Of a DNA stretch of 64,000 nt, positions 7,194 to 15,979 are shown piece by piece (within the stretch, counting starts at the first letter, position 1; each line of letters opens with the position of its first letter). The translations under genes and the position numbers were made by a program. Below the pieces are notes generated by a model, which was not told the origin of the DNA, ran no database searches, and worked only from the letters and a program-made list of their open reading frames with translations. Source of the DNA: Winogradskyella sp. J14-2 (lineage in GTDB: Bacteria > Bacteroidota > Bacteroidia > Flavobacteriales > Flavobacteriaceae); assembly GCF_001971725.1 (NCBI RefSeq), contig NZ_CP019388.1, forward strand, positions 372,001 to 436,000, in the 5' to 3' direction.

Positions 7194-7793
7194 TCATTTA
7201 TGCCTTTCTTTAAGAGTAGAAACTACATCTTCCAACTTAAACCCTTTGGCTTGTAACAACATTAAATAATGAAATAATAAATCTGCACTTTCGTTTAGAA
7301 ATAAATCGTCGTTATTGTCTTTAGCTTCGATAACGACTTCTACAGCTTCTTCACCAACTTTTTGAGCCACTTTATTGATACCTTTTTCAAATAAAGAAGC
7401 TACATAAGATTTTTCAGTATTACCAGCTTCTACTCTACTTTGTATGGTGTTTTCTAACTGTGTTAAAAATCCATAAGATTCGGTATTAGCTTCATACCAA
7501 CACGTATCACTTCCTTTGTGACACGTTGGTCCTTTTGGATTTACTGTAATTAATAACGTATCGTTATCGCAATCTAATTTAATATCTATTAAGTTTAAAA
7601 CGTTACCACTTTCTTTTCCTTTGGTCCAAAGTCGGTTTTTGGTACGGCTAAAAAAGGTCACCAACTTCGTATCTAGTGTCTTTTTTAACGCTTCTTCGTT
7701 CATATAACCCAACATCAACACATTTTTAGTTACTGCATCTTGAATGATTGCTGGGACTAATCCGTCGTTATTTTTATTGAAATTTATGTTCAT
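7194..7793 (-). CDS. hisIE: Bifunctional phosphoribosyl-AMP cyclohydrolase / phosphoribosyl-ATP pyrophosphatase
   Basis: A 199-residue fusion that performs steps 2 and 3 of histidine synthesis. The N-terminal HisI domain (about 1-105) has MLGYMNEEAL, RLWTKGKESG and the metal/zinc ligands in DCDNDTLL and GPTCHKGSDTCWYE. The C-terminal HisE domain (about 110-199) has the MazG-like acidic helices KVGEEAVEVVIEAK and ESADLLFHYLMLL. The ATG at 7793 is preferred to one 11 codons upstream because HisI proteins start close to this point and the upstream extension runs into a palindromic repeat. It is the last gene of the operon, with 48 bases to hisF. Confidence 0.95.
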   Translation of the reverse strand: MNINFNKNNDGLVPAIIQDAVTKNVLMLGYMNEEALKKTLDTKLVTFFSRTKNRLWTKGKESGNVLNLIDIKLDCDNDTLLITVNPKGPTCHKGSDTCWYEANTESYGFLTQLENTIQSRVEAGNTEKSYVASLFEKGINKVAQKVGEEAVEVVIEAKDNNDDLFLNESADLLFHYLMLLQAKGFKLEDVVSTLKERHK

Positions 7794-7813
7794 TATATTT
7801 TTTCGCTTTATGA

Positions 7814-7839
7814 GATCCTGAATCAAGTGCGGAATGACA
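7814..7839. repeat. Degenerate palindromic repeat, hisF-hisIE gap
   Basis: The 17-nt half TCAAGTGCGGAATGACA is identical to the copy at 8657-8673; the other arm is decayed. Confidence 0.6.
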
Positions 7840-7841
7840 AG

Positions 7842-8597
7842 TTATAATCTAACAGAAATACCTTCCTGCTTTAATTCTTCTTTTAAATTTTTTATTTCAA
7901 TTTCACCAAAATGAAATACACTTGCAGCCAAAGCAGCATCTGCATTTCCTACTTTAAAGGTATCTGTAAAATGCTGAATTGTTCCTGCTCCACCAGACGC
8001 AATTATCGGGATATTTACAGTGTCTGATAGTTTAGCCAAAGCTTTATTTGCAAATCCGTTTTTAGTTCCGTCGTTATTCATAGACGTAAACAGAATTTCG
8101 CCTGCGCCTCTTGTTTCAACTTCTTTTGACCAATCAAATAAATCTAATTCGGTTGGTATACTTCCACCAGCTAGATGTACTTTCCATTGTCCATTAACTT
8201 GTTTAGCATCTATAGCAACCACAACACATTGACTACCAAATTTACTTGATAATTCGTTTACCAATTCTGGTCGTTTTACAGCTGAAGAATTTACAGATAT
8301 TTTGTCTGCACCAGATTTTAAAAGTATATCTACATCTTCGATACTTGAAATTCCGCCACCAACAGTAAATGGAATATTGACTTGTTCGGCGACTTTTAGC
8401 ACCATTTCAATCATTGTTTTTCTACCTTCTAAAGTTGCTGAAATATCTAAAAACACCAATTCGTCTGCACCTTTTACCGCATACTGTTTTGCTAATTCTA
8501 CAGGATCGCCTGCGTCTCTTAAATTAACAAAATTAACGCCTTTAACGGTTCGACCGTTTTTGATATCTAGACAAGGTATGATTCGTTTTGTTAGCAT
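7842..8597 (-). CDS. hisF: Imidazole glycerol phosphate synthase cyclase subunit
   Basis: A 251-residue (beta/alpha)8 barrel of standard length. It starts [21 protein letters not shown], with the first catalytic Asp in CLDIKNG; the second catalytic Asp is in [10 protein letters not shown]. Phosphate-binding loops are TVGGGI and ASGGAGT. HisF takes ammonia from HisH and closes the imidazole ring, giving IGP and AICAR. It is followed by hisIE after 244 bases measured start to start of the gap region, with only a 48-base gap to the hisIE start. The 78-base gap upstream to hisA holds two palindromic repeats, one of which ends nine bases before the start codon. Confidence 0.97.
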
Positions 8598-8605
8598 AGT
8601 TTTTC

Positions 8606-8623
8606 TTCCTGCGAAAGCAGGAA
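8606..8623. repeat. Palindromic repeat TTCCTGC-GAAA-GCAGGAA upstream of hisF
   Basis: A seven-base perfect stem with a GAAA loop. On the coding strand it ends eight bases before the hisF start codon and brings an AGGAA purine run into ribosome-binding distance. Confidence 0.75.
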
Positions 8624-8646
8624 TCTATTTTTTAAATTTTCAAAGT

Positions 8647-8673
8647 GGATTCCGCATCAAGTGCGGAATGACA
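8647..8673. repeat. Palindromic repeat ATTCCGCA-TCAAG-TGCGGAAT, hisA-hisF gap
   Basis: An eight-base perfect stem with a TCAAG loop. A degenerate relative is at 7814-7839, and one with the same TCAAG loop is at 18914-18932. Confidence 0.75.
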
Positions 8674-8676
8674 GTT

Positions 8677-9411
8677 TTATAAAAAACGTTCTAATTCTTT
8701 TAAACTTATTCTGTTTTCGTAAATGGCTTTCCCGATTATGACTCCATCGCAACCTATGTCTGCTAAAACTTCAACATCTTCAATAGTTGTTACTCCGCCA
8801 GAAGCGATAAGTTTTACAGATTGATCTGCACTACCATTGGTACATTGGTTGATTATTTTTTTATACAAATCTACCGATGGACCTTGAAGCATTCCGTCTT
8901 TTGAAATATCTGTACATACCACATACTGAATACCATTTTTTTGATATTCCTGAATAAACGGAACAACCTCTAAACTACTTTCTTCTAACCAACCAGAAAT
9001 AGCGATTTTTTCGTTTTTACAATCGGCACCTAGGATAATTTTTTGCGTTCCGTATTTATTAATCCATCTTAAAAAAGTGTCGGTGTTTTTTACGGCTATA
9101 CTACCACCAGTAATTTGTCTTGCACCAGAATTAAAAGCCGTAAATACATCGTCGTCTGATTTAAGTCCGCCACCAAAATCAATTTTTAAATTGGTTTTTG
9201 TTGCCACCTTTTCTAATACTTTATAGTTGACTACGTGATCTGCTTTAGCGCCTTCTAAATCGACCATATGCAAGTATTCTATACCTGCATCTTCAAATTG
9301 CTTGGCAACTTCTAACGGATTTTCATTGTACATTTTTGTAGTGCTATAATCGCCTTTAGTTAATCTAACGCACTTTCCTTCTATTATATCTATTGCTGGT
9401 ATTATTCTCAT
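8677..9411 (-). CDS. hisA: Phosphoribosylformimino-5-aminoimidazole carboxamide ribotide isomerase
   Basis: A (beta/alpha)8 barrel of about 244 residues. It starts [20 protein letters not shown], with the catalytic Asp of PAIDI; the second catalytic Asp is in [10 protein letters not shown]. The terminal phosphate loop is IASGGV. HisA performs the Amadori isomerisation of ProFAR to PRFAR, step 4 of the pathway. Two in-frame ATGs lie at 9417 and 9411. The second is preferred because family members begin MRIIPAID and because an AGGAA sequence, supplied by the adjacent palindromic repeat, then sits six bases upstream. The first ATG directly abuts that repeat. Confidence 0.96.
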
Positions 9412-9417
9412 AATCAT

Positions 9418-9435
9418 TTCCTGCGTAGGCAGGAA
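9418..9435. repeat. Palindromic repeat TTCCTGC-GTAG-GCAGGAA abutting the hisA start
   Basis: A seven-base perfect stem, same family as those at 8606, 13932 and 14037. It directly touches the first in-frame ATG of hisA. Confidence 0.75.
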
Positions 9436-9453
9436 TCTTTTTAGTTAATATAT

Positions 9454-9476
9454 AGGCTTCGACTACGCTCAGCCTG
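9454..9476. repeat. Palindromic repeat of the TTCGAC-n-GCTCAG type, hisH-hisA gap
   Basis: AGGCT and AGCCT arms around TCGACTACGCTC. Related units lie at 13995-14018 and, inverted, at 11353-11386. Confidence 0.65.
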
Positions 9477-9487
9477 AAATTTTTATT

Positions 9488-10069
9488 TTATAAATTGATG
9501 AAATTTCTCAAAATTTGTTCGCCTGCTAAGGATGATTTTTCTGGATGAAATTGCACACCGTAAAAATTATCTTTTTGTAATGCTGAAGCGTATGCTACAT
9601 CATAAGTTGTTGTTGCGATTGCGTCTTTGCATTGTTCTGCATAAAAACTATGCACTAAATACATAAATTCATCGTCTTTAACACCTTTAAACAAATCTGA
9701 TTGAAGGTTATTAATCGTGTTCCAACCCATTTGTGGCACTTTTACCGTGTTTGAAAAGCGTTTTACACCTACATCAAAAATACCTAAACCTTTTGTATGT
9801 CCTTCTTCTGTAGATTTACACATTAATTGCATACCTAAACAAATCCCTAAAACAGGTTGTTTTAACTGCGGAATCAAACGATTCAAACCTGATTCTTTTA
9901 GCTTTTGCATTGCACTACTCGCCTCGCCTACACCAGGAAATATCACTTTGTCTGCTGCTTTAATTTCTTCAGGATTATTGGTTAATAATGCTTCAAAACC
10001 TAAGCGTTTAAAAGCAAATTGAATGCTTTTGATGTTACCTGCACCGTAATCAATAATTACAAGTTTCAA
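9488..10069 (-). CDS. hisH: Imidazole glycerol phosphate synthase glutamine amidotransferase subunit
   Basis: A 193-residue class I glutamine amidotransferase. It opens MKLVIIDYGAGNIKSIQFAF, has the oxyanion/nucleophile motif LGICLGMQLM with the catalytic Cys, and the His-Glu pair in VQFHPEKS. HisH hydrolyses glutamine and channels ammonia to HisF. The initiation codon is TTG: no ATG is available near the conserved N-terminus. It lies between hisB and hisA in the operon, with repeat-bearing gaps on both sides (70 bases to hisA, 122 bases to hisB). Confidence 0.95.
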   Translation of the reverse strand: MKLVIIDYGAGNIKSIQFAFKRLGFEALLTNNPEEIKAADKVIFPGVGEASSAMQKLKESGLNRLIPQLKQPVLGICLGMQLMCKSTEEGHTKGLGIFDVGVKRFSNTVKVPQMGWNTINNLQSDLFKGVKDDEFMYLVHSFYAEQCKDAIATTTYDVAYASALQKDNFYGVQFHPEKSSLAGEQILRNFINL

Positions 10070-10134
10070 ATTTCTTAGTTATTAAAATTGATATTTTTAG
10101 TTGTTGAAACTTATAATTATAAATTCCAATTTTT

Positions 10135-10172
10135 AAATTCCAAAGACATATGTTATTGTCAGTTTGGAATTT
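10135..10172. repeat. Imperfect inverted repeat AAATTCCAAA...TTTGGAATTT, hisB-hisH gap
   Basis: Arms AAATTCCAAA-GACA and TGTC-AG-TTTGGAATTT pair with a two-base bulge. A partial direct copy, AAATTCCAA, lies just upstream at about 10121. It is a different sequence type from the other his-gap repeats. Confidence 0.55.
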
Positions 10173-10191
10173 AGTTTTTGTTTTTTGTGAT

Positions 10192-11325
10192 TTACAAAAC
10201 ACCCTTTGTACTTGGTAAAATCATTTTTTCAACGTCGCGTTTTACAGCCATTTTTATTGCTTTTGCAAATGCTTTAAAAATCGCTTCAATTTTATGGTGC
10301 TCGTTTGTGCCTTCTGCTTTTATATTTAGGTTACATTTTGCACCATCTGTAAAGGATTTAAAGAAGTGAAAAAACATTTCGGTTGGCATTTTACCTATCA
10401 TTTCGCGTTTAAAATCGGCTTCCCAAACCAGCCAGTTTCTACCACCAAAATCTATTGCAGCTTGCGCAAAACAATCGTCCATTGGTAAGCTAAAACCATA
10501 ACGCTCTATACCCAATTTGTTTCCTAAAGTTGTAGCAAATACTTCACCTAAAGCAATTGCTGTATCTTCAATGGTGTGATGCTCGTCTACTTCTAAATCA
10601 CCTTCAACTTTAATGTTTAAATCTAATTGTCCGTGACGCGCAATTTGGTCTAACATATGGTCAAAAAACGCAATGCCAGTGTCGATATTACTTTGTCCAG
10701 TTCCGTCAAGGTTTAAATCGATTTTAATCTTGGTTTCGTTGGTGTTTCGTTCGATACTTCCTGTACGTTCTTTAGCTTTTAAGAATTTATAAATTTCTTC
10801 CCAATCGTTACTTTCTAAAGCGATAAACTGGTCTAAAGCATCTCGTTTTACCGTAATTTCGTCCGTTCCTAAATTGGTGTTATCATTGATAAAAATACCT
10901 TTAGAACCAAGGTTTTTAGCTAATTCTACATCGGTTAATCGGTCACCAATGACAAACGAATTTTCTAAATCGTAATCCTCACAGAAATACTTGGTTAACA
11001 AACCTGTATTTGGCTTTCGTGTTGGTGCGTTATCTTTAGCAAATGTTCTGTCAATAAATTGTTCTTCAAAAATAACACCTTCGTTTTCAAAAGATTGAAG
11101 TACAAAATTATGAACAGGCCAAAACGTATTTTCTGGATATACATCTGTTCCCAATCCATCTTGATTGGTAATCATTACAATTTCAAAATCTAATTCTTTA
11201 GCGATTTTACTTAGATAGGTAAACACTTTTGGATAAAACACCAACTTCTCAAAACTATCAATTTGCTCATCTGCTGGTTCTTTAATTAGCGTGCCGTCTC
11301 GGTCTATAAATAGTACTTTTTTCAT
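10192..11325 (-). CDS. hisB: Bifunctional histidinol-phosphatase / imidazoleglycerol-phosphate dehydratase
   Basis: A 377-residue fusion. The N-terminal HAD phosphatase (about 1-165) has the nucleophile motif [12 protein letters not shown] and [16 protein letters not shown]; it removes phosphate from histidinol phosphate. The C-terminal dehydratase (about 175-377) has the manganese-binding signatures [13 protein letters not shown] and [15 protein letters not shown], plus a second HH motif near [14 protein letters not shown]. It thus performs steps 6 and 8 (with HisC in between). This fusion is common in gammaproteobacteria and in Bacteroidota. The start codon directly abuts a nine-base inverted repeat (11326-11345). 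Confidence 0.97.
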
Positions 11326-11345
11326 TTGATTAACTTGTTAATCAA
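11326..11345. repeat. Perfect palindrome TTGATTAAC-TT-GTTAATCAA abutting the hisB start
   Basis: A nine-base stem with a two-base loop, immediately upstream of the hisB ATG. Transcribed as part of the operon it would fold next to the start codon. Confidence 0.6.
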
Positions 11346-11352
11346 TCCTGAA

Positions 11353-11386
11353 CTGTCCCACTGAGCGCAGTCGAAGTGTGTTACAG
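11353..11386. repeat. Palindromic repeat with CACTGAGCGCAGTCGAAGTG core, hisC-hisB gap
   Basis: Nested arms CTGT/ACAG and CACT/AGTG. The core is the reverse complement of the TTCGAC-n-GCTCAG units at 9454 and 13995. Confidence 0.6.
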
Positions 11387-11412
11387 GATTTTATTTATTT
11401 TGTTTTATTTCA

Positions 11413-12489
11413 TTAAGACCAGCTAGGTTTTGTGAAACCTGCAAGGTCTTTTAATACTGCAATCAATTTCTCATTCTCTTCACTTGTGCCAACCGTAAAA
11501 CGCAAACAGTTTTCACAAAGTGGCTGATTGGTTCGGTTACGAACAACGATGCCTTTTTCAACCAACTGATTGTATCGATTAGTCGCATCATCAACCTTTA
11601 CTAGCACAAAATTAGCTTGTGTTGGATATATAGTATTAATCCAAGTAACTGATGCTAACGCTTTTATTAACAAGCGTCTTTCTAAAATTATATTTTGAAT
11701 TTCGTTTTGAACGTCTTGTTGATTTTCTAATCGTTGAATTGCCTTTTGCTGCGTTAGTTGATTGACGTTATATGGTGGTTTTATTTTATTTAAAATTGAA
11801 ATAATTTCGGTAGATGCGTAGCAAATCCCGAGTCTGATGCCTGCCATTCCGTAAGCTTTAGACAGCGTTTGTGTAACTATTAAATTAGGAAAATCTGATA
11901 ATCTTGACAACCAACTTTTATCTTCTGAAAAATCGATATATGCTTCGTCAATCACAACGATTCCATTGAAATTAGTTAATAATTTTTCAATTTTTGAAGC
12001 TTCAAAACTATTCGCTGTTGGATTGTTTGGCGAACATAGAAATAACAGTTTTGTATCGTCGTTTTGAGTGTTTAAAATTTCTTCTACTTTTGGTTGAAAA
12101 TCAATATCCAATTCAACTGTTAAAACGTCTATAGCATTTGTATTTGCTAATACGTCGTACATACCGTAAGTTGGTGGCAATGTGATGATATTATCTTGAT
12201 TTGGCTCACAAAAGGCTCTAAAAATTAAGTCTAACACTTCATCACTTCCGTTTCCTAACAAGATATTTTCGGTTGGAATGTTTTTGATCTTTGACAATAA
12301 CGATTTTACATCTTTTTGTTGCGGATCGGGATAACGATTTACGCCATTTTCGAACGGGTTTTCATTTGCATCTAAGAAAATCATTTGGTTTGATGTTGCA
12401 TCCTTAAACTCATCTCTCGCCGAAGAATACGGTTTTAAGGCTGCAATGTTTGGTCTGACTAAGTTATTTATGTTGAAAGTTGTTTTCAT
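11413..12489 (-). CDS. hisC: Histidinol-phosphate aminotransferase
   Basis: A 358-residue fold-type I PLP aminotransferase. Visible motifs in order: DANENPFENGVNRYPDP (substrate site), LLGNGSDEVLDLIF (phosphate cup), CSPNNPTAN, VIDEAYIDFSE (Asp to the pyridine nitrogen), TLSKAYGMAGIRLG with the Schiff-base Lys, and RNRTNQPLCENCLRFTVGT with the substrate-carboxylate Arg. HisC converts imidazole acetol phosphate to histidinol phosphate using glutamate. It is third in the operon. The 155-base gap to hisD upstream is almost entirely filled by a 138-bp repeat element. Confidence 0.96.
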   Translation of the reverse strand: MKTTFNINNLVRPNIAALKPYSSARDEFKDATSNQMIFLDANENPFENGVNRYPDPQQKDVKSLLSKIKNIPTENILLGNGSDEVLDLIFRAFCEPNQDNIITLPPTYGMYDVLANTNAIDVLTVELDIDFQPKVEEILNTQNDDTKLLFLCSPNNPTANSFEASKIEKLLTNFNGIVVIDEAYIDFSEDKSWLSRLSDFPNLIVTQTLSKAYGMAGIRLGICYASTEIISILNKIKPPYNVNQLTQQKAIQRLENQQDVQNEIQNIILERRLLIKALASVTWINTIYPTQANFVLVKVDDATNRYNQLVEKGIVVRNRTNQPLCENCLRFTVGTSEENEKLIAVLKDLAGFTKPSWS

Positions 12490-12502
12490 TTAATTTGATT
12501 TT

Positions 12503-12640
12503 CGTCAGTTCGAGTGATTTTCTTTTGAAAATCGTATCGAGAACTTTAACATCTCGATACAATTTCTATAAGCTTCGCTTAGGTATCTTCAATCAAAATA
12601 TATTTTGATTTCGATAATTTCGAAATCACTCGATGTGACG
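12503..12640. repeat. MITE-like 138-bp element with terminal inverted repeats, hisD-hisC gap
   Basis: The 18-nt ends, CGTCAGTTCGAGTGATTT and AAATCACTCGATGTGACG, are inverted repeats matching at 16 of 18 positions. Inside lie further hairpins: GATTTTC-TTTT-GAAAATC (12516-12533), TATCGAGA...TCTCGATA (12535-12559), AAGC-TTC-GCTT and a perfect 20-bp palindrome (12591-12610). It has no coding capacity. The layout fits a non-autonomous miniature element or a composite REP-like unit. Similar TCGAGTGATTTT sequences are, from memory, common in flavobacterial genomes. Confidence 0.7.
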
Positions 12641-12644
12641 TTTG

Positions 12645-13925
12645 CTATATATCTTTTAATCTAATGGAAACTGCGTTTTTGTGCGCTTGTAATCCTTCAG
12701 CTTCTGCCATTAGTTCTATAGTGTTTCCTATGTTTTTTAAACCTTCTTTTGTGATGTTTTGAAACGTAATTGCTTTTGTAAAACTGTCTAAATTAACGCC
12801 AGAATACGCTTTACTAAACCCATTAGTTGGCAAGGTGTGATTGGTGCCAGACGCATAATCGCCAGCACTTTCTGGTGTGTAATTACCTATAAATACCGAA
12901 CCTGCATTTTGAATACAATCAACATAAAAGTCGTTGTTTTTAGTCGCAACAATAAAGTGTTCTGGACCATAATCATTAATTAAATCTAATGCTTCTTCAT
13001 CCGTTTTTACTAAAATAGATTTTGAATTATTGATCGCTTGTTTTGCAATATCTCGTCTTGGTAATGCTTTAATTTGCGTGTTAATTTCAGCTTCAACTTT
13101 ATTTATAAAATTTTCAGAAGTTGATACTAAAATGACTTGACTATCAGTTCCGTGTTCTGCTTGACTTAATAAATCTGAAGCCACATAACTTGCGTTTGCA
13201 CTATCATCCGCCACAACCAACAATTCGCTTGGTCCTGCAGGCATATCGATAGCGACACCGTATTTTGTGGCCAATTGTTTTGCTACGGTTACAAATTGAT
13301 TTCCAGGACCAAAAATCTTATAAACTTGCGGAATAGTTTCAGTTCCAAATGTTAATCCTGCAATTGCTTGAATACCACCAACTTTTATAATTTTAGTCAC
13401 ACCGCAAAGTTGAGCTGCATATAAAATTTCATTTGCAATTTTACCATCTTTATTTGGTGGCGAACATAATACAACTTCTTTACAACCAGCAATATTTGCT
13501 GGAATTGCTAACATTAAAACTGTTGAAAATAATGGCGCAGTACCAGCAGGAATATAAATCCCAACTTTTTGAATGGCACGTTTTTCTTGCCAACAGGTAA
13601 TTCCTATAAATGTTTCTACACTTACCTTTTCTGTTTTTTGTGCTCTGTGAAATGCTTCAATATTTGACTTTGCTTGGTTAATCGCCGCTTTTAGTTCTGA
13701 TGATAATTTAGAAGATGATTCTTCAATCTCTTGCGCAGTTACGAGATTTGATTGCAAATCTGCACCATCAAACAACTTGGTGTATTTTGAAACTGCTATA
13801 TCACCATTGCGTTGTACGTCTTCAAAAATTTGATTAACCGTACTTTCTATATCGTTAACGGTTTGTGTTGGTCGTTTTAAAAGTTCTGACCACGTGTTTT
13901 TATTTGGGTATTTTATTGTTTTCAT
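12645..13925 (-). CDS. hisD: Histidinol dehydrogenase
   Basis: About 426 residues, normal for HisD. It oxidises histidinol to histidine in two NAD-dependent steps with a bound zinc. Visible motifs: PAGTAPLFSTVLMLAIPA, FGPGNQFVTVAK, DMPAGPSELLVVADD, AEHGTDSQVILVS (zinc Gln/His region), INDYGPEHFIV (catalytic Glu-His) and ASGTNHTLPTNG (zinc His). Two in-frame ATGs lie at 13931 and 13925; the second is preferred, as in hisA, because the first directly abuts a palindromic repeat. The gene is second in the operon. Confidence 0.96.
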   Translation of the reverse strand: MKTIKYPNKNTWSELLKRPTQTVNDIESTVNQIFEDVQRNGDIAVSKYTKLFDGADLQSNLVTAQEIEESSSKLSSELKAAINQAKSNIEAFHRAQKTEKVSVETFIGITCWQEKRAIQKVGIYIPAGTAPLFSTVLMLAIPANIAGCKEVVLCSPPNKDGKIANEILYAAQLCGVTKIIKVGGIQAIAGLTFGTETIPQVYKIFGPGNQFVTVAKQLATKYGVAIDMPAGPSELLVVADDSANASYVASDLLSQAEHGTDSQVILVSTSENFINKVEAEINTQIKALPRRDIAKQAINNSKSILVKTDEEALDLINDYGPEHFIVATKNNDFYVDCIQNAGSVFIGNYTPESAGDYASGTNHTLPTNGFSKAYSGVNLDSFTKAITFQNITKEGLKNIGNTIELMAEAEGLQAHKNAVSIRLKDI

Positions 13926-13931
13926 ATTCAT

Positions 13932-14056: not shown

Positions 14057-14914
14057 TTAGAGCACCATATTTTCAATCGGACAAACTAATATGCCTTCTG
14101 CTCCTTTTGCTTTAAGTTCGTCTATAATTTCCCAGAAATCGTTTTTATTGATTACAGAATGTAATGAACTCCAACCTTCTTCTGCCAACGGTAAAACGGT
14201 TGGACTTTTCATACCAGGCAGAATATTTATAATATCGTCTACTTTGTTATTTGGTGCGTTAAGTAAGACATAGCGTGAATTTCTAGCTTTTAAAACCGAT
14301 TGTAATCTAAACTGTAGCTTGTTTAAAATCGCTTGATTTTTAGAAGAAATTTTAGGGGAAACTGCTAATACAGCTTCCGACTTTAAAATGACTTCAACTT
14401 CCTTAAGATTGTTTTTAAACAAAGTGCTTCCGCTCGAAACAATATCTACAATAGCATCTGCTAATCCAATGTTTGGCGCAATTTCAACAGAACCGTTAAT
14501 GATGTGTAAATTGGCGTTAACGTTGTTGTCTTTTAAGAATTGGTTGACTGTGTTCGGATAAGACGTCGCAATACGTTTTCCTTCTAAATCTTTGATGGAA
14601 TTATAGCTTTTTCCTTTTGGAATGGCTACAGACACTTTACAGCTAGAAAATCCTAATTTCTCTGCAACAGTGATGTCTTGCCCTTTTTCTACTAAGACAT
14701 TTTCGCCAATAATGGCTACATCTACAATGCCATCTTTTAAGTACTGTGGAATGTCTCCATTACGTAAATAAAAGACTTCTAATGGGAAGTTTTTAGCCGA
14801 AGCTTTAAGTTGATCTTTACCATTATCGATAGAAATACCAACGTCTTTAAGGATTTTCATAGAATCCTCGTTTAATCGTCCTGATTTTTGAATTGCAATT
14901 TTTAGTTTACTCAT
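14057..14914 (-). CDS. hisG: ATP phosphoribosyltransferase, long (HisG-L) form
   Basis: A 285-residue protein, the length of the long form that carries its own C-terminal regulatory domain and needs no HisZ. It opens MSKLKIAIQKSGRLNEDSM; it contains VDVAIIGENVL and the PRPP-binding region GLADAIVDIVSSGSTL. The C-terminal ACT-like domain (about 210-285) contains GMKSPTVLPLAEEGW and ends GILVCPIENMVL. It catalyses the committed step, ATP + PRPP to phosphoribosyl-ATP, normally feedback-inhibited by histidine at the C-terminal domain. It is the first structural gene; a His-rich leader peptide and attenuator lie upstream, so both enzyme and transcription are probably controlled by histidine supply. 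Confidence 0.97.
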   Translation of the reverse strand: MSKLKIAIQKSGRLNEDSMKILKDVGISIDNGKDQLKASAKNFPLEVFYLRNGDIPQYLKDGIVDVAIIGENVLVEKGQDITVAEKLGFSSCKVSVAIPKGKSYNSIKDLEGKRIATSYPNTVNQFLKDNNVNANLHIINGSVEIAPNIGLADAIVDIVSSGSTLFKNNLKEVEVILKSEAVLAVSPKISSKNQAILNKLQFRLQSVLKARNSRYVLLNAPNNKVDDIINILPGMKSPTVLPLAEEGWSSLHSVINKNDFWEIIDELKAKGAEGILVCPIENMVL

Positions 14915-14965
14915 TTTTCTTTTTTGTTTAAAGCGTTTGAGTAAATCTTGGTGAAGTTTTTATAA

Positions 14966-14998
14966 ATAAAAAACCGCTTGATTTACTCAAACGGTTTT
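14966..14998 (-). terminator. Attenuator terminator of the his operon
   Basis: AAACCGTTTGA pairs with TCAAGCGGTTT (11 pairs, one G-U) around GTAAA, followed by six T residues. It lies 32 bases after the leader-peptide stop and 52 bases before hisG. Confidence 0.85.
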
Positions 14999-15029
14999 AA
15001 AAAATATCTTGGTTTTATTCAATACATTT

Positions 15030-15086
15030 TCAACTCGCTTGAGTGCGATTATGAAAATGATGATGATGTAATTGAATAAAAGTCAT
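15030..15086 (-). CDS. hisL: his operon leader peptide
   Basis: An 18-codon reading frame encoding MTFIQLHHHHFHNRTQAS, with five His codons, four of them consecutive. All His codons are CAT. It sits directly upstream of an intrinsic terminator and of hisG, the first gene of the histidine operon. Its last codons (ACT CAA GCG) double as the antiterminator segment. A chance run of His codons exactly here is unlikely. The symbol is given by analogy to the enterobacterial leader peptide; there is no sequence homology beyond the His run. Confidence 0.88.
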   Translation of the reverse strand: MTFIQLHHHHFHNRTQAS

Positions 15087-15152
15087 GTTTTGTTTTGTTA
15101 TGCACAAAGGTTCAAAAAATAAAACTAGAATTCCAAGTGATTAACAAATTTT

Positions 15153-15968
15153 TTATTGATTGCCCAAAATTATTGGCATTCCACTATCGCCCGAACCAAT
15201 GATAACCACTTTACTGTTAGGTGATTCTGCTAATTTATTAGTGGCTTCAATACCTTTGTCCTGAAGAATTTTATCTGTTAAAGAAGCGCTTAAAATCTTA
15301 TTGGCCTGCGCTTTACCTTCTGCCTCAATGATTTGGCGTTCAGCTTCTTTTTCTGCAGTCACCAACCTAAATTCGTATTCTAAAGATTCTTGCTCCTGTT
15401 TTAGCTTACGCTCAATGGCATCTTTAATTGTTGGTGGTAATGTTACATCACGGACTAAAATCTCATCAAGAACAATGTATTGGTCATCTACAATTTTTTT
15501 GGTTTCTTCAAAAATTTCTTTTTGTATTGCATCTCGTTTACTAGAGTACAATTGTTCTGGCGTGTAACGACCTACAACGCTTCGTGCGGCAGATCTAATG
15601 GTTGGTAAAATGATTCTATTAAGGTAATTTTCGCCTATTTCTTGATGCAACTTTCCTAAGTTATTCTCATCTGGCTTATACCACGCAGAAGCGTCTAGCT
15701 GAATATCTAAACCGTTTGAAGATAGCACCTTCATTTTTTCGAATATCTCTTGGCGTCTAACTTCGTAGACGTAAACCTTGTTCCAAGGTGCCACAATATG
15801 AAATCCTTCACCTAGTGGTGGCTCGTCGGTGACTACACCTCCACCAAAGGTTTTGTATAAAACCCCTGCTTCACCAGAGCCTATGGTCACTGCAGACTTC
15901 GCAATAACAATGATCAAAAAAACAATCCCAATTAAGATTGGTAATCCAATTTTAGGTAATCTTTCCAT
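15153..15968 (-). CDS. SPFH/prohibitin-family membrane protein
   Basis: About 271 residues. A single N-terminal transmembrane segment (residues 5-27, IGLPILIGIVFLIIVIAKSAV) is followed by an SPFH domain (GSGEAGVLYKTFGGGV through about residue 190) and a short coiled coil rich in Glu and Ala (KLKQEQESLEYEFRLVTAEK). Bacterial prohibitin-like proteins form large membrane-associated assemblies and often act with membrane proteases such as FtsH; no such partner is next door. The ATG at 15968 is chosen over a TTG two codons upstream. It follows the VWA-like gene closely (11 bases) and is probably cotranscribed with it. Confidence 0.9.
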   Translation of the reverse strand: MERLPKIGLPILIGIVFLIIVIAKSAVTIGSGEAGVLYKTFGGGVVTDEPPLGEGFHIVAPWNKVYVYEVRRQEIFEKMKVLSSNGLDIQLDASAWYKPDENNLGKLHQEIGENYLNRIILPTIRSAARSVVGRYTPEQLYSSKRDAIQKEIFEETKKIVDDQYIVLDEILVRDVTLPPTIKDAIERKLKQEQESLEYEFRLVTAEKEAERQIIEAEGKAQANKILSASLTDKILQDKGIEATNKLAESPNSKVVIIGSGDSGMPIILGNQ

Positions 15969-15979
15969 TTTCAATTTTT

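Follow-up and report, generated by a model that had tools for sequence, protein, structure and literature searches.

A predicted histidine-specific, ribosome-mediated attenuator upstream of hisG in the Flavobacteriaceae and other families of the Bacteroidota

The locus described here raises the question of what a short reading frame rich in His codons, followed by an intrinsic terminator, does directly in front of hisG in a genome of the Bacteroidota. Attenuation of his transcription by the ribosome is a textbook case in enterobacteria, where the his leader (RF00514) consists of a run of His codons, a leader peptide, a terminator and an antiterminator 5′ of hisG, with the leaders of Salmonella and E. 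coli forming a multi-hairpin relay (A–F). Judged from its sequence and from that of related loci, the element studied here is very probably a histidine-specific, ribosome-mediated transcription attenuator as well. It lies in the window (the whole stretch of DNA that was analysed, 64,000 nt), which was taken from a marine bacterium with a genome of 3.35 Mb in a single contig, the HisG of which shares 98% identity with HisG of Mesoflavibacter zeaxanthinifaciens. By NCBIfam the genes follow the order hisG, hisD, hisC, hisB, hisH, hisA, hisF, hisIE. Read on the minus strand, the interval from 15153 to hisG at 14914 holds a promoter-like region, the leader ORF and the terminator, followed by 53 nt to hisG. 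The His leader, terminator and hisG had been described in the original prediction and were confirmed, at 15086–15030, 14998–14970 and 14914, respectively. The parts of this layout are as follows:

15105–15136, minus strand: promoter-like region, recognised from sequence, with TTG at 15136–15134 and a -7-like element ending in TTTG at 15108–15105
15030–15086, minus strand: leader peptide ORF MTFIQLHHHHFHNRTQAS, an HHH leader being found in 80/80 nearest named relatives
15057–15068, minus strand: run of four His codons, all CAT, read from the sequence
14970–14998, minus strand: intrinsic terminator d:e, with a run of six T at 14973–14968 and 99.2% of alignment cells paired
14057–14914, minus strand: hisG, the first structural gene (TIGR00070, TIGR03455)
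7194–13931, minus strand: hisD, hisC, hisB, hisH, hisA, hisF and hisIE, the rest of the his operon, from NCBIfam matches

The region at 15105–15136 is called promoter-like on the basis of the -33/-7 promoter consensus of the Bacteroidota. Its -7-like TTTG is situated 18 nt 5′ of the leader ATG, and a TTTG was found 8–50 nt 5′ of the leader ATG at 79/81 loci, at a median distance of 18 nt and most commonly at 17–19 nt, with the complete TAnnTTTG present at only 11 of the 81. The gene further upstream (15153–15974, minus strand) is SPFH/prohibitin-like by eye and gave no NCBIfam match at 1e-20.

As this upstream gene runs in the same direction as the leader and ends 66 nt before it, the terminator might belong to that gene, or to a small RNA, with the His-rich frame being incidental. 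The conservation of the frame makes this explanation barely credible. Relatives were collected by scanning a genome collection with HisG and keeping the best 80 of at least 555 loci; their titles name the Flavobacteriaceae or genera which we take to be members of that family, except for five with broader labels. An HHH leader, defined as a short ORF with any of three start codons and at least three consecutive His codons no more than 400 nt upstream of hisG, was found 5′ of hisG in 80/80 of these nearest named relatives. A model-free sample of the phylum gave a similar picture. HisG was matched in 252 of 296 phylum genomes (matches listed to E ~1e-39, with more distant HisG such as that of family f84 falling outside the sample), and 80 hisG upstream regions were hand-picked from the 252, mostly one per genus with about 12 second members of a genus. 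At least four His within seven codons were found 5′ of hisG in 60/80 regions, compared with 0/80 reverse complements and 3/800 dinucleotide shuffles; at the lower threshold of three His the counts were 68/80, 2/80 and 38/800, respectively. Omission of four loci from genomes that had been chosen for a match to the covariance model described below (L211–L214) left at least four His in 57/76. The spacing and pairing reported below also suit a ribosome, which again argues against an incidental frame.

The His leader (three or more His within seven codons at one or more loci) was present in 19 of the 25 sampled families. The sampled loci of the remaining six (f81, f85, f92, f104, f108 and f114) had no His-rich leader, and family f96 was mixed, with and without one.

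The use of His codons in the leader differs from that in the gene. Among the 81 loci, 343 of 358 leader His codons are CAT and 15 are CAC, while in the hisG genes CAT accounts for 92/209 and CAC for 117/209. Pairing in the lid described below, or decoding, may be the reason for the near-exclusive use of CAT in the run.

Two strands were identified around which the termination decision would turn:

14986–14993, minus strand: strand d, the terminator 5′ arm CGTTTGAG, with core CGTTTGA unchanged in 81/81 loci
15036–15044, minus strand: strand b, the antiterminator strand ACTCAAGCG in the last leader codons, with an 8-nt core CTCAAGCG at 15043–15036

Pairing within the family was assessed on an alignment (A1) of the window with 79 of the 80 loci, L059 being omitted as identical over that stretch and the first row starting 6 nt before the ATG. 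The terminator hairpin is present in 81/81 loci, its T-run being broken in a few (e.g., L013 and L068), and has an energy of -14.1 kcal/mol, with both-side changes in three pairs of A1. The 3′ arm e varies almost solely among letters that keep the pairing while the core of d is invariant, as expected if the 5′ arm has more than one partner. A second partner is provided by strand b, which ends one codon before the leader stop in the window. It had been predicted that the leader end could pair over nine bases with the terminator 5′ arm, and ACTCAAGCG indeed forms nine pairs with CGTTTGAGT, one of them G-U. In A1 the b:d pairing holds in 95.8% of cells and is nearly invariant. Strand d can pair with b or with e, the two being mutually exclusive. 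The relatives thus keep the His-rich frame (80/80) and both stems (terminator 99.2% and antiterminator 95.8% of cells), as had been proposed for checking, so that the absence named as a refuting outcome was not observed; the compensatory changes sought at the same time were found for the terminator (the three pairs above), whereas b:d showed no covariation inside the family (A1), its two strands changing together across families as described below.

It might be supposed that the peptide end Gln-Ala-x-stop itself arrests the ribosome, with the His run merely tuning the response, since this C-terminus (QAx) is highly conserved over the 80 loci. We consider this very improbable, as conservation appears to act on the nucleotides. 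The penultimate leader codon, which lies inside b, is GCG in 75/81 leaders, compared with 155/1472 Ala codons in 80 hisG genes, a bias which indicates that the nucleotides are under conservation. In Formosa maritima (L006) the leader Gln codon CAA has become TAA, so that the peptide is shortened and QAS is lost, yet b still pairs with d; it is therefore the RNA, and not the peptide end, that is conserved. The leaders of distant families also have other C-termini.

Attenuation by a stalled ribosome would require that b be left free beyond the His run, and the distance between the two is strongly constrained. In 77/81 loci the b core begins 13 nt beyond the end of the His run, the gap in the other four being 7, 7, 7 and 16 nt. 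When folding was computed with a ribosome placed at the last codon of the His run and e absent, b:d had a probability above 0.5 in 79/81 loci, compared with 32/81 without the ribosome. With e present, equilibrium folding of the stalled state gave b:d a probability above 0.5 in 0/81 loci and the terminator won. Since equilibrium favours the terminator once e is present, antitermination would have to be kinetic.

The original prediction had presented a complete element. Its leader, strand b and terminator stood, but the element was incomplete, as a lid helix and a further strand f were missed within the same interval (14934–15086). The lid consists of two helices enclosing b:

15071–15080, minus strand: lid helix P1, 5′ strand TTTATTCAAT, codons 3–6, from pairing and covariation in A1
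15014–15023, minus strand: lid helix P1, 3′ strand ATTGAATAAA, after the leader stop, from pairing and covariation in A1
15052–15059, minus strand: lid helix P2, 5′ strand CATTTTCA, the His-Phe-His codons ending the run
15025–15032, minus strand: lid helix P2, 3′ strand TGAAAATG, over and after the leader stop, from pairing and covariation in A1

In A1 the cells of P1 are paired in 90.1% of cases, with a covariation score of 0.107 compared with 0.035 for shuffled alignments (reached in 0/500) and at most 0.066 for slid versions. P2 is paired in 93.6% of cells with a score of 0.140 compared with 0.112 when shuffled (0/500). The numbers of pairs in which both sides have changed are unexceptional, the four in P1 being reached by 32/500 shuffles and exceeded by 2/6 slid versions, and the three in P2 being reached by 192/500 shuffles. 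When the segments were anchored at the first His codon, 85.9% of the lid was paired compared with 81.6% after shuffling (0/1000; 41 distinct rows). The leader and terminator of the window fold at -33 kcal/mol compared with -14.2 ± 3.0 for shuffles (z -6.3), and the single-sequence fold contains both the lid and the terminator. RNAalifold on A1 gave the terminator only, with the lid absent, which may be due in part to a gap placed by MAFFT at the first His codon of HHH leaders. A mini-hairpin (P3) hiding strand b, seen in the fold of the window, was rejected because its 83.1% of paired cells equals that of shuffles and the alignment gives it no support.

The locus has a His-codon ORF before hisG, preceded by a promoter recognised by motif only, a terminator and a mutually exclusive antiterminator, and the 13-nt spacing and the folding probabilities indicate that a stalled ribosome would free b and that a ribosome at the stop would cover it. 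The predicted sequence of steps, with its dependence on histidine and its consequence for expression, is as follows. RNA polymerase would start just 5′ of the leader ORF, with a ribosome entering the ORF at once. When His-tRNA is scarce, the ribosome would stall at the His run, covering the first leader codons and opening the lid, and leave the b core exposed 13 nt downstream. Strand b would pair with d before e is made, the terminator would form too late and the his operon would be transcribed. With ample histidine the ribosome would reach the stop and cover b, allowing d:e to form and transcription to terminate. If no ribosome is present, the lid would re-form around b and termination would be favoured. 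After readthrough, strand f just 5′ of hisG would also compete for d.

The distribution of the element was followed with a covariance model of the lid and terminator (R1), with which two overlapping sets were searched, 395 genomes from the class and 296 from the phylum. Matches at E ≤ 0.001 were obtained in 83/395 and 50/296 genomes, the weak ones including chance matches. For the 47 best loci (L082–L128) hisG was downstream in 47/47, and for further places chosen by hand (E 4.8e-12 to 1.6e-4) in 14/16. The leader pattern missed 4 of these 61 hisG loci (L096, L130, L132 and L144), yet His codons are visible there. In the model-free phylum sample the lid was significant in 18 of the 68 loci having at least three His (9/44 with a terminator and 9/24 without). 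The predicted attenuator, which in the window has a lid helix, is of a type that spans many families of the phylum.

An intrinsic terminator was found in 44 of those 68 loci, and at these the stretch between the His run and the terminator was compared with the terminator 5′ arm and loop. Pairing of b with d was significant in 37/44 (better than about 95% of shuffles), with a combined P of 2.6e-33 which serves as a guide only, as loci within one family are non-independent. At 41/44 loci, b and the leader stop end no more than 16 nt apart. The paired sequences are unrelated between families, e.g., GGTAGGCC with GGCTTACC and GGCGCCGG with CCGGCGC. A single position can be followed in 50 nearer loci, of which 29 carry T and 21 carry C as the fourth letter of d. 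Among the 29 with T, the facing letter of b is A at 21 loci and G at 7, one locus being unparsed. Among the 21 with C (CGTCTGAG vs CGTTTGAG), it is G at 15 (CAGGCG) and never A, the remaining 6 showing a different letter or register. Strands e and f are likewise altered in many rows in which the fourth letter of d differs. The sequences thus indicate that the two strands of b:d change together across families. Comparison hence supports the reading of the locus as an attenuator that had first been made from the window (leader 80/80, 13-nt spacing 77/81, b:d 37/44).

The same search detected no intrinsic terminator at the remaining 24 His-leader loci of the 68, and 17 of these 24 belong to families f41 and f90. 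His-rich leaders without a detected intrinsic terminator were observed in f41 at L174, L176–L178, L215 and L216, and in f90 at L187, L189, L191, L195–L198, L200, L203, L204 and L210, which makes 17/17 of the sampled loci of the two families. The read-out there may be a different one, via Rho-dependent termination or translation.

Beyond the terminator lies the second part that had been overlooked:

14934–14947, minus strand: strand f GATTTACTCAAACG, after the T-run and 19 nt before the hisG ATG

In the window, all 14 nt of GATTTACTCAAACG are complementary to the terminator 5′ arm and loop. The d:f pairing is significant (p ≤ 0.05) in 70/81 loci and not in 11/81. In a further set of loci, taken from the window's family as well as several other families and having a terminator like that of the window, it is significant in 42/50 and not in 8/50; these are 50 of 60 loci, ten without a CG(TTT/TCT/CCT)GA terminator by pattern having been excluded, and many of the 50 belong to one genus (g2). 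On sequence comparison, the added strand f is thus shared by the window's family with several other families. Among the 66 of 81 loci with d:f at -11 kcal/mol or better, f ends 12–20 nt before the hisG ATG in 50, most commonly at 15 nt. Pairing of f with its cognate 5′ arm and loop averages -12.0 kcal/mol compared with -8.9 ± 0.4 when partners are permuted (32 distinct sequences, 0/2000, kinship ignored), and the locus's own sequence is the best or tied partner in 50/81 loci. Short extra hairpins (CCTG...CAGG or CCCGCTTTCTCGGG) were observed near f at L003, L011, L023, L044, L064 and others, and their presence varies among relatives.

As f is transcribed after the T-run, it can have no part in the termination decision. 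Folding of the readthrough RNA favours d:f over d:e in 37/81 loci, and in the window almost all of d is predicted to pair in this way. Control might accordingly be thought to act mainly at hisG translation, with the partner of d (b, e or f) setting whether f near the start is free and the terminator being secondary. The conservation and covariation of f, its common end 15 nt before the AUG and the near balance of d:f and d:e in the readthrough RNA (37/81) would fit such control, as would the dependence of Bacteroidia on adenines 5′ of the start and on a less structured start region, as given in part of one report (PMC9976891), which also states that Bacteroidia ribosomes do not generally use Shine-Dalgarno sequences. 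However, the start region is predicted to be only slightly less open when d:f may form (0.578 vs 0.654, 65 loci), and f is non-significant in 11/81 and 8/50 loci while the terminator hairpin is present in 81/81. Control mainly by translation is therefore considered unlikely, and transcription attenuation by the stalled ribosome is preferred.

Within this attenuation, f might act on translation or on RNA stability, displace the terminator hairpin, or pair in trans with released leader RNA, while template-switch copying between inverted repeats is a candidate origin that calls for no function. The possibility that f opens the hisG start region was rejected after constrained folding (65/80 loci), in which openness was 0.578 with d:f allowed and 0.654 otherwise. 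A wider proposal, possible but rather doubtful, is that d acts as a hub for which b, e and f compete, with the loop offering f a toehold, and that it would set termination first, then hisG translation or stability, and possibly pairing of leader RNA with f in trans. Simple mutations would give access to the role of this conserved strand behind the terminator.

With respect to known families, no Rfam model matched anywhere in the window at its gathering score, including the T-box (RF00230), RF00514 and RF01692, and no match, including RF00514, was obtained at that score for 17 other loci. All Rfam matches at E ≤ 10 were far below threshold (the lowest E, 2.7e-4, was that of an Enterococcus sRNA with 26.2 of 100 bits, and Phe_leader had an E of 9.2), and RF00514 and RF01692 gave none at E ≤ 10 in 14900–15160. 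The element resembles the enterobacterial his leader in having a His run, leader peptide, terminator and antiterminator before hisG, but its b pairs directly with the terminator 5′ arm and the RF00514 covariance model finds no match.

The original prediction had considered the locus a possibly independent or little-described instance. No Rfam family matches it, but the element is not an isolated one, being recognisable by its leader in 60/80 phylum loci, and a counterpart has been listed in Flavobacterium psychrophilum (PMC9723704). That 2021 study, in the part drawn on here, lists for F. psychrophilum a structured 5′ element in front of hisG, before the same gene and in the same family, as conserved across other Flavobacteriaceae genera and without an Rfam hit, and reports strong clues for leader-peptide attenuation before amino-acid operons (PMC9723704). 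To that section the present analysis adds the sequence, the strands, a predicted mechanism and the spread beyond the family. The his element is not in Rfam, and the lid and f are parts beyond the original prediction. Elsewhere, the portion consulted of a work on the his genes of the superphylum refers to attenuation a single time, in connection with Salmonella and E. coli (PMC8305728), and short ORFs reminiscent of leader peptides have been reported in Bacteroides thetaiotaomicron in a paper whose main text, as far as drawn on here, does not use the word histidine (PMC7366714). A survey of 255 genomes suggested, in the part used here, a possible gammaproteobacterial origin for those amino-acid attenuator motifs that Rfam contained at the time (PMC3766115). 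A literature search returned no title or abstract on a Bacteroidota-wide his attenuator, most subscription papers being outside its scope (e.g., Lopatovskaya 2010, cited in PMC4833913 on attenuation). His leaders in another phylum, including Bacteroidia, would make transcription-translation coupling directly testable at a natural reporter.

The source genome has two further leaders with which that of hisG can be compared. The trpE leader MKTITNHTWWWNFANARS (L226:770–826) matches RF01692 with 64.1 bits, the family described as the Bacteroid-trp leader (PMC2864571, in the part consulted). It shares with the his leader its phylum and genome and a short peptide whose regulatory codons lie close to its start, and the RF01692 structure pairs the region between the leader start and the Trp codons with sequence after the stop, like the his lid. 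Its codons are for Trp, however, and the 15 nt between its T-run and the ATG hold no f strand by inspection. The pheA leader MTNTSRAYYNWFYFFFNERNEA (L229:1247–1315) is rich in Phe and Tyr codons and has a terminator, and by inspection its end CGAGGCTT pairs with the terminator arm AAGTCTCG, giving a b:d pairing placed like that of the his leader, over the last codons and the stop; it differs from the his leader in those Phe/Tyr codons and has no f strand by eye, and it gave no Rfam match. With his, trpE and pheA leaders in one genome, leader-peptide attenuation looks like a general device there.
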